A stretch of DNA of 33,303 nt. Origin: Bacteroidota bacterium (GTDB taxonomy: Bacteria; Bacteroidota; Bacteroidia; Bacteroidales; Prolixibacteraceae). The stretch spans positions 1 to 33,303 of the forward strand of contig JAUXUF010000352.1 of the NCBI GenBank assembly GCA_030684645.1, given 5' to 3'. This document shows positions 17,274 to 21,368 of this stretch, piece after piece. Positions within the stretch are counted from its first letter, which is position 1, and each line of letters opens with the position of its first letter. The translations under genes and the position numbers were made by a program. The notes beneath the pieces are model-generated. The model was not told where the DNA came from. It saw only the letters and a list, made by a program, of their open reading frames with translations, and did no database searches.

Positions 17274-18200
17274 TTAAATCACAAAATCCATCGCTTCCAA
17301 ATTAAACGGGGTCTGCTGATACACATAGTAATTTAGCCAGTTGGTAATCAACAGGTTAGCATGTCCTCTCCATCGCATTAATGGTTCTTTATCCGAATTG
17401 TCGTTTGGATAATAATTTACCGGTATTTCAATAGGTAATTTTTTCTTCAAATCCCTTTTGTATTCGGTATCCAATGTAAATCTTGAGTATTCGGCATGTC
17501 CGGTAATAAAAAACTGACGGCCTTCCTGCGACATGACCATATTTACCCCCGATTCGTCTGATTTGGAAATTACATCCAAATCAGGAACTTTCCGGATGTC
17601 CTTCTCTAAAACTTCGGTATGCCGGGAGTGAGGAATAAAATATTCATCATCGAAGCCCCTGAAAATAGACAAGGTATCATTGGTATTCCGGTGCTTGAAA
17701 ACACCAAACATTTTTTTACTGAGTGGATATTTTGGTATCCCGTAGAAATGAAACATACCGGCTTGAGCAGCCCAGCATATAAAGAGCGTTGATGTTACGT
17801 GTTTTTGCGACCAGTCAAAAATGGCGGTAAGTTCCTTCCAGTAGGTCACTTTTTCGAAGGGCAGTAATTCAACAGGAGCACCGGTAATAATCATCCCGTC
17901 ATAATTCCTGGATTTCAATTGGTCAAAGGTTTTGTAGAAGGCCTTCATGTGCACTTCGGGCGTGTTTTTTGATTCATGGCCTTTCATCCTCAGAAACTCA
18001 ATCTCCACCTGCAACGGGCTGTTTGAAAGCAATCGGATCAGATCGGTTTCCGTAGTAATTTTCACAGGCATTAAATTGACTATGATTATCTTTAACGGAC
18101 GGATATCCTGGTGCGCCGCCCGCGATTCATTCATGATAAAGATATTTTCTTTCTGCAGCAGTTCGATCGCCGGTAACTGGTCTGGAACGTTAATAGGCAT
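17274..18200 (-). CDS. metA: Homoserine O-acetyltransferase
   Basis: MetA activates homoserine for methionine synthesis by acylating its hydroxyl. The 308-residue protein keeps the family numbering exactly: nucleophile C142 in LFICWAAQAG, H235 and E237 in GHAEYSR. Position 111, which decides the acyl donor, is Glu (GAPVELL), the acetyl-CoA type, instead of the Gly of the succinyl-CoA enzymes. This fits the upstream metY, which uses O-acetylhomoserine. It is the last gene of the minus-strand methionine operon, 77 nt after metY, with a large hairpin in the gap. It has no clear promoter of its own. It converges with the OmpA gene with only 4 nt between stops. Confidence 0.95.
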   Translation of the reverse strand: MPINVPDQLPAIELLQKENIFIMNESRAAHQDIRPLKIIIVNLMPVKITTETDLIRLLSNSPLQVEIEFLRMKGHESKNTPEVHMKAFYKTFDQLKSRNYDGMIITGAPVELLPFEKVTYWKELTAIFDWSQKHVTSTLFICWAAQAGMFHFYGIPKYPLSKKMFGVFKHRNTNDTLSIFRGFDDEYFIPHSRHTEVLEKDIRKVPDLDVISKSDESGVNMVMSQEGRQFFITGHAEYSRFTLDTEYKRDLKKKLPIEIPVNYYPNDNSDKEPLMRWRGHANLLITNWLNYYVYQQTPFNLEAMDFVI

Positions 18201-18277: not shown

Positions 18278-19606
<1,329 letters not shown>

Positions 19607-20950
19607 TCAATTAAAAAATGTGCTGTGAATTTCGGTAATGGCTTTCCGGGTATCTTTCTGGTCAACGATCAGGTAGCTTACCAGGTCTGAAGCTCCGGAA
19701 CCACTCAGTAAAACGTTAATTTTATGTTGGGCAACGGCAGTAAATAGTTTGGCCGATACACCATGGTGCTGCTGCATCCCATGACCGACTACCGCAATTA
19801 GTGAAACCTGATCTTCAATAATGATTTCGCTGACCGAACTAAGTTGCAGTTGCCTGCAGATTTGGCGTGCCTGTTCAATTTCATTTTTATTTAGAATTAT
19901 ATTGATGCTTACCTGTGAGGTAATTACTGAGCGAATGTTGATTCCGGAACCATGAAAAGCAGTAGTTACTTTAGCCAGAATCCCGGGTTTAAAACCTACC
20001 CCGGGGCCATTCAGTTTTAGTATGGCAATTTCTTCGGTATGAACAACACTTTTGACTACATTGGGAGATACAAACGATTCGGAATTAATGATAGTGGCCA
20101 GTTCTTTTCCCTGGTTCACCAGCCGGTAAACGTGAATTGGAATGTGGGTGCTGATCAAAGGTTCAACAATCCGCGGGTGAATGGAAAGTTCGCTGAAATA
20201 AGACAATTCAGATGCTTCATCATAGGTCAACCGCGGAATGAGTTTCGCATCGGGAATAAATTCTGAATCAGAGGTTTTGAATTCCTTGTCCAGTTCCCAC
20301 AATTCCAACGAATCTGCTTCGGTTAGGCGTGCAATTGCGGCAGCCGAATAATCAGCCGACTGTTTCCCAAGCCTGGCAATTTTTCCAGCTGAAGTGATGC
20401 CATATGAACCAGGAATCAGACTAATTCCTGCCGGAACAGAATTTTTCAGATGGATGGATTCATCAAACAATACAGAAGCATTTCCGAATTCCTCGGTGAC
20501 AATAAGTCCAATATCTTCAGGAAAAATCAGACTTGAAGTGATTAGCTTTTGGGTTAGAAATACGTTAAGAATACCCGCAGTGATTCGCTCTGAATAACTA
20601 ATGACCTGATCTTTGAGAGTCAGTGAAAAATCGCCGGTATATTCAATTCCCTTTAGCAAATTATGGAGGTTTTTCAATTCCTTCTTCAGGTTTTCATCGG
20701 GTTCTCCTCCCTCAAATACCTGCAATCGTTGGGTAATGATATGATTGATCTGGTTGATTACCTGTTTAGAAGTGGCAGCATTATTAATCAACAAATTAAT
20801 GCCTTGTTCAATGGTTTGCTGTATTTCTGGAACGGCGGAAATCACCACAGTTACGTTTTTTCCTGATTCGGACAAGAGGCCGGCAAAAGCTTCCAGAACC
20901 TGAAATTTCGATAAACTGTTTCCGCCAAATCGTACGGTACAATTTGACAT
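19607..20950 (-). CDS. Divergent aspartate kinase-like protein with ACT domains
   Basis: This 447-residue protein has an amino-acid-kinase domain (about 1-290) and two C-terminal ACT domains (about 300-447, for example KLNGPGVGFKPGILAKVTTA and GHGMQQHHGVSAKLF). Aspartate kinase makes aspartyl phosphate, the precursor of homoserine. Key sites differ from the usual: the N-terminal KFGGTS is RFGGNS, so the phosphate-binding Lys is Arg. The GRGGSD loop reads LGKQSADYSAA, keeping the Asp but not the Arg. A glutamate in YSERITAG is kept. It could be a weak or methionine-dedicated kinase, a regulatory subunit, or a pseudo-enzyme. It is the first gene of the met operon. The ATG is about 26 nt after the U tract of the attenuator. 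Confidence 0.82.
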   Translation of the reverse strand: MSNCTVRFGGNSLSKFQVLEAFAGLLSESGKNVTVVISAVPEIQQTIEQGINLLINNAATSKQVINQINHIITQRLQVFEGGEPDENLKKELKNLHNLLKGIEYTGDFSLTLKDQVISYSERITAGILNVFLTQKLITSSLIFPEDIGLIVTEEFGNASVLFDESIHLKNSVPAGISLIPGSYGITSAGKIARLGKQSADYSAAAIARLTEADSLELWELDKEFKTSDSEFIPDAKLIPRLTYDEASELSYFSELSIHPRIVEPLISTHIPIHVYRLVNQGKELATIINSESFVSPNVVKSVVHTEEIAILKLNGPGVGFKPGILAKVTTAFHGSGINIRSVITSQVSINIILNKNEIEQARQICRQLQLSSVSEIIIEDQVSLIAVVGHGMQQHHGVSAKLFTAVAQHKINVLLSGSGASDLVSYLIVDQKDTRKAITEIHSTFFN

Positions 20951-20975
20951 GATAATATTTTAAAATGAAATTTGG

Positions 20976-21081
20976 AAAAAATAATGGGTTGAGCCTTCAA
21001 ACAATATGAACATACACACCGCCTGAAGGCTCGTGCATTATCATAGGCATGACAGACATCATAGAATCATTGCAACCCATT
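20976..21081 (-). promoter_or_regulatory. Putative methionine attenuator: nested hairpin and U tract
   Basis: On minus, an inner helix is formed by GAGCCTTCA (21024-21032 on plus coordinates) and TGAAGGCTC (20991-20999), with a loop of 24 nt. An outer helix pairs AATGGGTT (21074-21081) with AACCCATT (20983-20990), directly adjacent to the inner right arm. After AACCCATT come A and then six T (20976-20981), so the U tract abuts the outer helix. The inner left arm starts 4 nt after the last Met codon of the leader ORF; the inner right arm contains its stop codon. The elements are perfect complements. The role as a transcription attenuator is inferred. Confidence 0.65.
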
Positions 21082-21125
21082 GGAAGGGATACACAGGAAG
21101 TGATATTTTTTGCTGAATGATTCAT
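20997..21125 (-). CDS. Methionine-rich leader peptide of the met operon
   Basis: A 42-codon frame starts at ATG 21125, about 20 nt after the expected transcription start, and ends at TGA 20997-20999. Seven of 42 residues are Met: 1, 16, 22, 23, 26, 28 and 30. Residues 21-30 read SMMSVMPMIM. The start is preceded by an A-rich stretch (AATAAAA), as in other genes of this genome, with no Shine-Dalgarno. It lies between a strong promoter and the aspartate kinase-metY-metA genes. This placement and the Met cluster directly before a hairpin are those of an amino-acid leader peptide that senses charged tRNA. It has no expected function as a protein. Ribosome profiling would show a stall at codons 22-30 under methionine limitation. 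Confidence 0.7.
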   Translation of the reverse strand: MNHSAKNITSCVSLPMGCNDSMMSVMPMIMHEPSGGVYVHIV

Positions 21126-21151
21126 TTTTATTGATCTTATACAATTGAGTG

Positions 21152-21182
21152 CAAACATAAACAGATTTTCAAAATAGACAAA
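21152..21182 (-). promoter_or_regulatory. Promoter of the methionine operon
   Basis: On minus, TTTG (21179-21182) is followed after exactly 19 nt by TATGTTTG (21152-21159), the full Bacteroidetes -33/-7 consensus. The -33 TTTG is itself the end of another perfect box, TATCTTTG (21179-21186). Transcription should begin near 21146, giving a leader of about 196 nt before the first gene. Confidence 0.8.
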
Positions 21183-21368
21183 GATATATCGGAAATGTTT
21201 AAATAAAATCAGGTTAAATAATTGTTAAGGGCTGGTGTTTGAAGTTCAATGCTTTTATATGCTGATAGTTATTGGATGCATGCCGCATCGTTTCCGAAAT
21301 GAAAATATCCTTTCTCCAAAGCAAAAATCTGAATTTTAAACTTAAATGCGGAGATATTTAATACATTT

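Follow-up and report, generated by a model that had tools for sequence, protein, structure and literature searches.

In the trp, his, thr and leu attenuators of Proteobacteria, a leader peptide with codons for the regulated amino acid lies near a hairpin directly behind the promoter. In the TnaC system, the ribosome is held at the end of the leader peptide with a Rho-dependent readout, and the free amino acid is sensed via the nascent chain. Methionine genes are known for repressors, S-adenosylmethionine (SAM) riboswitches and T boxes, and Shine-Dalgarno sequences are little used in Bacteroidota. The subject of this study is a stretch of 33,303 nucleotides from a Bacteroidota bacterium of the family Prolixibacteraceae (assembly GCA_030684645.1, contig JAUXUF010000352.1, positions 1 to 33,303; hereafter the window), which belongs to a genome of 5.2 Mb and carries an aspartate kinase-metY-metA operon preceded by a short open reading frame (ORF) with a run of Met codons and by a stable hairpin. 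This region is probably a methionine-responsive, translation-dependent leader of the operon, i.e., a ribosome-mediated attenuator in the broad sense.

In the accessible text of PMC2258182, the S box (SAM-I) is said to control a terminator or the ribosome site in P1, not a Met/Cys leader ORF. For the cys leaders of Mycobacterium, the available part of PMC1262725 gives Rho as a possibility suggested by its authors. Small ORFs reminiscent of leader peptides are described in Bacteroides thetaiotaomicron, with no met case in the accessible text (PMC7366714), while the accessible text of PMC2965389 contains no word starting "Bacteroid" and that of PMC12121620 nothing relevant. A preliminary description of the window, made from its sequence alone, knew of no described Met leader peptide of this kind in Bacteroidetes. 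In the open-licence PMC literature that we searched, neither a Met leader peptide nor a combination of SAM-I with a leader is described for Bacteroidota.

The elements of the locus are as follows.

21152..21182, minus strand: promoter TTTG-N19-TATGTTTG, by pattern match in the window
20997..21125, minus strand: leader ORF of 42 codons, MNHSAKNITSCVSLPMGCNDSMMSVMPMIMHEPSGGVYVHIV, from the ORF list and conserved in relatives
21036..21062, minus strand: Met run in the translation, codons 22-30, with Met at 22, 23, 26, 28 and 30
21030..21032, minus strand: GAG where 27 of 31 compared loci show the leader stop TAG
20991..21032, minus strand: 18-bp hairpin, arms 21032-21015 and 21008-20991, loop 21014-21009, by folding and covariation
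20976..20981, minus strand: six-T run, 9 nt past the hairpin, mostly not conserved and part of no recognised terminator
20951..20990, minus strand: G-free spacer from the hairpin to the first gene, by base composition
19607..20950, minus strand: aspartate kinase with AA_kinase and ACT domains, by domain search
18278..19582, minus strand: metY, O-acetylhomoserine sulfhydrylase, TIGR01326 over cut-off
17274..18200, minus strand: metA, homoserine O-acetyltransferase type, NF047918 over cut-off

All the parts that the preliminary description had read from the letters are present. The promoter lies at 21182..21152; a single match in the window against 0.84 expected by chance is weak alone, and the full TTTG/TATGTTTG motif, with a spacing of 18-22, is present in 23 of the 31 kinase loci compared below. 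We take it to be a Bacteroidota-type promoter. The 42-codon ORF with five Met among codons 22-30 was found as described, from the ATG at 21125 to the TGA at 20999..20997, and the assignment of the downstream genes as aspartate kinase, metY and metA is confirmed by the domain and family matches. A longer in-frame ORF starts at 21158 and is unlikely to be transcribed, since this start falls inside the -7 box. The leader ORF is unusually long, by 11 codons, because the usual TAG reads GAG, and its TGA sits inside the right arm of the hairpin. This hairpin, GAGCCTTCA/TGAAGGCTC, had been recognised together with the stop codon in its right arm, but its length of 9 bp was too short, as G-U pairs lengthen the stem to 18 bp (-27.8 kcal/mol, z = -6.76, with equally stable shuffles in 0 of 200). 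The six-U tract is present at 20981..20976, but it is 9 nt away from the hairpin and mostly not conserved. The spacer between hairpin and gene has on average 4.7% G and 19.4% C over the 31 loci. At the gathering thresholds of Rfam, no match was obtained in the window, known leader families such as Bacteroid-trp included, and five chance-level matches appeared at E up to 10. SAM-I (RF00162) is absent at gathering from the window and from its genome, and the tRNA search of the window found none.

The evidence for the leader comes from relatives. Fifty kinase loci were fetched, namely L001, 19 named loci and the 30 top-ranking matches of a kinase search in 61 genomes, which gave 31 non-identical loci including the window; the comparison covers stand-alone kinases, not those of bifunctional size. 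All 31 carry a Met-ending leader upstream of the kinase, which ends in M-x-M-R-TAG in 26, and the last 12 codons contain 2-6 Met (4-6 in the window's genus). As the preliminary description expected of an alignment of orthologs, the position of the Met run is conserved: counted back from the stop, all 30 rows have Met at -4 and -2, and position -1 is Arg in 28 rows and His in the other 2; L026, whose leader stops one codon earlier, is omitted. The Arg is replaced elsewhere by H, Q, C or L in some loci. The usual stop, TAG in 27 of the 31, marks the base of the left arm of the hairpin. The exceptions are the window (GAG), L009 and L022 (both CAG), all three of which read on for 11 codons through the hairpin, and L026, in which CAG at the usual site is preceded by an earlier TGA. 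Among stand-alone kinase loci added later, three of four (G028, G029 and G033) have the leader, with few Met in G033.

A covariance model of the Met run and the hairpin (R1) was searched against the 61 genomes, the window's own included, and 33 of them, all of the window's family, each have a single strong copy, with E from 9.8e-23 to 8.8e-8; 32 of these copies precede the kinase and that of G027 precedes metY. The weak matches, with E between 0.002 and 0.05, include a real leader in G033 and two hits to known hairpins read on the opposite strand. In 295 genomes of the order, R1 has 27 places in 26 genomes at E <= 0.01, two of them already known (the window and G032). Fourteen of these places were opened, of which seven precede met genes and seven lie elsewhere (L084 at a contig end), and two further places (G132 and G147) proved to be leaders. 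Similar leaders occur in other families before metY, metX, metH and the kinase; the endings FTMPLMPMCMR, FTMPLLPMCMR and FIMPLMPMCMR are found in two other families of the order, and FIMPSMPMIMR in L024 of the window's family. The bare pattern M-C-M-R-TAG matches 11 times in the 295 order genomes (four leaders before met genes, seven not), and P-M-C-M-R-TAG matches once in 395 genomes of the phylum, away from met genes.

The compensatory changes foreseen in the preliminary description were found, as was a relative excess of synonymous change in the leader frame over the other two frames. In the structure-fitted alignment (41 matches, 38 distinct rows, with two matches that read a known hairpin on its opposite strand), 91.7% of the cells are paired and double changes occur in 10 of 17 pairs, against 4.1 +- 1.3 in shuffled alignments and at most 6 in slid controls. 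Such an alignment is biased towards the structure; a MAFFT alignment retains 4 double-change pairs among 13 predicted. The ratio of nonsynonymous to synonymous change (pN/pS) of the last eight leader codons is 0.52 in frame versus 0.90 and 1.02 in the other frames. A structure with z below -1.5 follows the leader stop in 14 of 14 loci of the window's family that were picked as diverse. Judged from these comparisons of sequences, the conserved Met leader before the kinase is real, and the leader arrangement of the window exceeds chance by its conservation in relatives.

The preliminary description had foreseen neither the normal stop at the foot of the left arm, to which the window is exceptional, nor the coupling of leaders to SAM-I in relatives. 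A SAM-I aptamer over the gathering score is present in 8 of 16 loci scanned, and in seven (G182, G317, G246, G132, G257, G028 and G033, the last two from the window's family) the leader follows closely downstream of it; the remaining locus is G052, without a Met leader. In the order, SAM-I occurs in 43 of 149 genomes at 48 places, all over cut-off. A fixed rule, which takes the first ATG behind P1 (the end of P1 being set by the model match where coordinates allowed and otherwise 26 nt past a conserved motif), finds a short ORF at 36 of these 48 places, and the ATG is 9-15 nt past P1 in 28 of the 36. The rule took a different frame than the manual choice in L152 (SMRMR) and L272 (MACCCR) and counted a chance ORF before the terminator of the metB locus L132; the counts were left unaltered. 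The last 12 residues of the 36 ORFs hold 66 Met versus 5.7 +- 2.3 in 300 shuffles and 18 Cys versus 10.0 +- 3.3 (6 of 300 shuffles as high), and M-x-M occurs in 19 ORFs versus 0.04. Four order loci, all metH, have their first gene within 25 nt of P1, at 12, 13, 15 and 20 nt. Because these direct metH starts share the position of the leader start, the aptamer is placed where leader initiation could be controlled, and the spacing suggests that SAM-I could control the leader's own start codon.

In the class, SAM-I was found in 177 of 247 genomes at E <= 0.001, in 175 over cut-off, and the 150 places listed, out of a larger number of matches, were examined. Genes were assigned by short sequence motifs, and ten representative proteins from various loci were checked with Pfam. 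The places are given below by first gene, with those that have an ORF and those whose ORF has at least two Met plus Cys in the last 12 residues; class values hold among the matches listed.

Order, metY: 17 places, 16 with an ORF, 11 with at least two Met plus Cys
Order, kinase: 5 places, 4 with an ORF, 4 with at least two
Order, metX: 3 places, 3 with an ORF, 2 with at least two
Order, metH: 16 places, 7 with an ORF, 4 with at least two; Met 9 versus 1.3
Order, metB: 4 places, 2 with an ORF, 1 with at least two
Order, other: 3 places, 3 with an ORF, 2 with at least two
Class, metY: 13 places, 12 with an ORF, 10 with at least two
Class, metX: 5 places, 3 with an ORF, 3 with at least two; Met 8 versus 0.5, Cys 15 versus 0.9
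Class, hom: 1 place, 1 with an ORF, 1 with at least two
Class, metH (negative control): 89 places, 11 with an ORF, 1 with at least two; Met 1 versus 1.9, Cys 4 versus 2.9
Class, metB: 15 places, 2 with an ORF, 0 with at least two
Class, gene not assigned: 24 places, 3 with an ORF, 0 with at least two

A further three class places among the matches listed have no ORF. Within the same set, the metY leaders contain 15 Met versus 2.0 +- 1.3 and 47 Cys versus 4.2 +- 1.9 in their last 12 residues, and the riboswitches of metH and metB together have a Met/Cys leader in 1 of 104. The counts include the exceptions L215 and L278 (metY, ORF without Met/Cys enrichment), L240 (metY, no ORF), and L217 and L230 (metX, no ORF). 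From the order counts for metH it follows that some metH loci bear such leaders there too. Class leaders end, for example, in DCMCMCCCCC, CCMCICCPCC or CCCMTCCCMH, typical codon runs, and that of L227 has 7 Cys among its last 9 codons. These Cys runs in place of Met runs argue for codon sensing, i.e., the sensing of tRNA charging.

Several loci show features of their own. The leader behind SAM-I in L120 (G033, about 396-443), before aspartate kinase, is MITMTTITRTSISML*, in which Thr and Ile are abundant besides Met, and its stop hairpin is the same as elsewhere. In L246 and L311, the codons of the Cys run, TGTTGTTGT or TGTTGT, could base-pair with an AACAACA that follows the leader stop at a distance of about 20 nt, a possible attenuator-type pairing. 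In L188, L207 and L261, all of one genus (g371), odd and partly similar ORFs with segments such as NGEWS and PFTIH stand behind SAM-I and look like intergenic repeats.

A second leader of this kind precedes another gene in the window's genus and family. SAM-I occurs in 26 of the 61 genomes, including 11 of 23 of this genus and excluding the window's own. The window's family has 17 SAM-I places; G033 had been seen earlier, four were not fetched and 12 were opened. In nine of the 12 (L327, L330, L333, L335 and L337-L341), an hcyBio-like (homocysteine biosynthesis) gene is preceded by a leader that starts at about +7 to +9 and ends in NMCMC*, NGCMC*, MCMR* or similar (e.g., MKKQANLYFLSFMYFSNMCMC* or ...FSNMCMC*). 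In the remaining three, the gene follows directly (L331), the place lies at a contig end (L332), or it is the kinase locus of G028. The hcyBio assignment rests on Pfam in L330 (PF01837, E = 4.3e-78) and on sequence likeness in the other loci; in the window's genome, a search run without a positive control gave no match for hcyBio. Comparison of the hcyBio and kinase loci therefore indicates that one genus bears the same C-terminal signature behind SAM-I and, elsewhere, without SAM-I. In a tree of 39 kinase sequences, rooted at the midpoint only, the aptamer label needs two changes. G029, which has the leader and no aptamer, groups beside the aptamer-bearing G028 and G033 with a support of 90/67, which is not strong, and the other 31 aptamer-free rows lie on one side of the tree. 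The simplest reading of this distribution would be aptamer loss in the window's lineage. We incline to the wider view that in Bacteroidota SAM-I before metY, metX, aspartate kinase and hcyBio gates the translation of a Met/Cys leader and not the gene directly, so that SAM and charged Met-/Cys-tRNA would be read serially by one mRNA, and that in the window's lineage the first sensor of this locus was lost, so that the leader acts by itself and the hairpin at the leader stop replaces the terminator.

The leader would work as follows. When charged Met-tRNA is scarce, the ribosome would stall at the Met codons beside the hairpin, keep the left arm open and cover the G-free spacer, and the operon would be expressed. 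When Met is plentiful, the ribosome would complete the leader, the hairpin would close and the spacer would be exposed, which would lead to early termination, probably Rho-dependent, or to poor translation initiation. In relatives with an aptamer, SAM would first decide on leader translation, which would place two sensors in series, SAM and then charged Met/Cys-tRNA, and in the window's lineage, where the locus has no aptamer, the leader alone would be left. Rho-dependent termination is favored as the readout by analogy with the Mycobacterium cys leaders, and translation initiation is placed second.

Several observations weigh against this attenuator. A low G content may be common in the 5' regions of these bacteria and so lends the Rho idea no direct support. 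Strong structure after the leader stop is not general beyond the window's family, with z below -1.5 in 8 of 23 loci of the order and 4 of 9 of the class. No mutually exclusive pair of antiterminator and terminator was demonstrated, and the long-range pairing AATGGGTTG:CAACCCATT, perfect in the window, joins upstream and downstream segments with -6.96 kcal/mol in cognate pairs versus -7.63 kcal/mol in non-cognate pairs of 21 genus loci. The kinase locus of G052 combines SAM-I with no Met leader, and in L026, L027 and L028 only 2 of the last 12 codons are Met, fewer than a classical codon run would have. The M-x-M-R end is more constant than codon sensing requires and would suit a nascent-peptide effect as well, and the strict terminator rule described below is negative in all 31 family loci.

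The AATGGGTTG:CAACCCATT pairing was rejected, as cognate pairs are no better than non-cognate ones. In folds of genus loci, the Met codons (TATGATAATGCGC in relatives) are able to pair with the upper part of the hairpin (GTGATTATCATG; window 21045-21008), as an alternative or a pseudoknot, which by eye is absent from the distant relatives looked at.

An arrest by the nascent peptide, similar to TnaC or CGS1, in which Met, SAM or a precursor would make the M-x-M-R end hold the ribosome at the stop codon, is unlikely, even though the fixed Met at -4 and -2 (30 of 30 rows) and Arg at -1 (28 of 30, L026 again omitted) and the recurrence of MP-[LM]-[LM]-PMCMR or near forms in other families would suit it. 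Three loci, the window among them, no longer have the stop and continue for 11 codons, the Arg gives way to H, Q, C or L in some loci, and the Cys runs of other orders (L227, 7 Cys in the last 9) are hard to fit to one motif.

The preliminary description took the hairpin and the U6 for an intrinsic terminator that a stalled ribosome prevents from forming. The window has both elements, and a run of at least 5 consecutive T occurs within 25 nt past the hairpin in 8 of the 31 loci, but the claim that the hairpin stops transcription in this manner was not upheld. The scan of 20900..21250 found no terminator, and U6 is too distant for a canonical one since 9 nt separate it from the stem. A strict rule, by which the stem is followed within 2 nt by at least 6 T in 8 nt, is satisfied in 0 of the 31 family loci, although in an 80-place class set it finds 6 of 6 metB and 26 of 44 metH loci (without a Met/Cys leader and not "direct"). 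Among SAM-I loci with a Met/Cys ORF, it is positive in 5 of 25 of the order, one being the metB locus with a chance ORF before a real terminator, and in 1 of 9 of the class. The rule therefore finds terminators where they are usual, and there are none in the window's family; within the order the difference is less clear-cut, as metB without such an ORF gives 2 of 2, comparable metH 1 of 8 and metY with another ORF 2 of 5. Classical intrinsic attenuation is accordingly improbable. A lax rule was dropped as too loose, since it was positive in 24 of the 31 family loci and there responded chiefly to a tail of the TTGTTTGA type within the hairpin itself. In L132, L133, L140 and L141 of the same order, SAM-I before metB or metH is followed by a hairpin and a T-run, ordinary intrinsic terminators, which makes two or three coexisting expression platforms.

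It is very unlikely that the RNA is a ligand- or protein-binding element with an incidental ORF: the hairpin is strongly conserved, but Rfam gives no match at gathering, synonymous change is frame-specific and the same amino-acid pattern is kept in differing nucleotide contexts. A small functional protein, suggested by some N-terminal similarity within the genus, is hardly credible, since the first eight codons show no frame-specific constraint in pN/pS within the genus, the sequence before the Met run differs widely between genera and the position before met genes is fixed.

If the proposed coupling is true, a class-wide Met/Cys leader system coupled to SAM-I would amount to a two-input RNA circuit of natural origin, and the target of many terminator-less SAM-I riboswitches of Bacteroidota would be accounted for. 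It raises the question of how leader peptides function where intrinsic terminators are missing and Shine-Dalgarno sequences are little used. Both SAM-I and attenuation by leader peptides are known kinds of regulation, whereas no paper found in the open-licence searches describes a Met/Cys leader or its tandem with SAM-I in Bacteroidota; the novelty therefore lies in the variant.

The window leader shares with the trp, his, thr and leu attenuators a run of regulated codons near a hairpin behind the promoter, whereas it has no U-tract terminator, its residue is Met and its host belongs to Bacteroidota. Similar to TnaC, the ribosome would be held at the leader end, but codon sensing is preferred here. 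In relatives, SAM-I (S box, RF00162) is found before these genes too, and its aptamer there immediately adjoins the leader ORF on the upstream side; the window is without it. The SAM-II metA leader of Sinorhizobium meliloti likewise combines a SAM riboswitch, a terminator, two possible starts and a met gene; it belongs to another riboswitch class and phylum, and its abstract mentions no Met/Cys leader peptide (PMC9373788). The 5' untranslated region of the Xanthomonas met operon is also Gram-negative and methionine-responsive and partly resembles a SAM-I aptamer, although the word peptide is absent from the accessible text, in which the authors favor control of translation initiation (PMC6230763). 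As described in the available part of PMC1262725, the Mycobacterium cys leaders differ in that they concern Cys only, occur in Actinobacteria and have no conserved hairpin, and no SAM-I aptamer is mentioned there; they resemble the present leaders in being short ORFs with sulfur amino acid codons near the stop, before sulfur amino acid genes, and in having no conserved terminator hairpin. Compared on sequence, the window leader has the layout of a terminator-less sulfur amino acid leader of the Mycobacterium cys type, a resemblance that is one of layout only.

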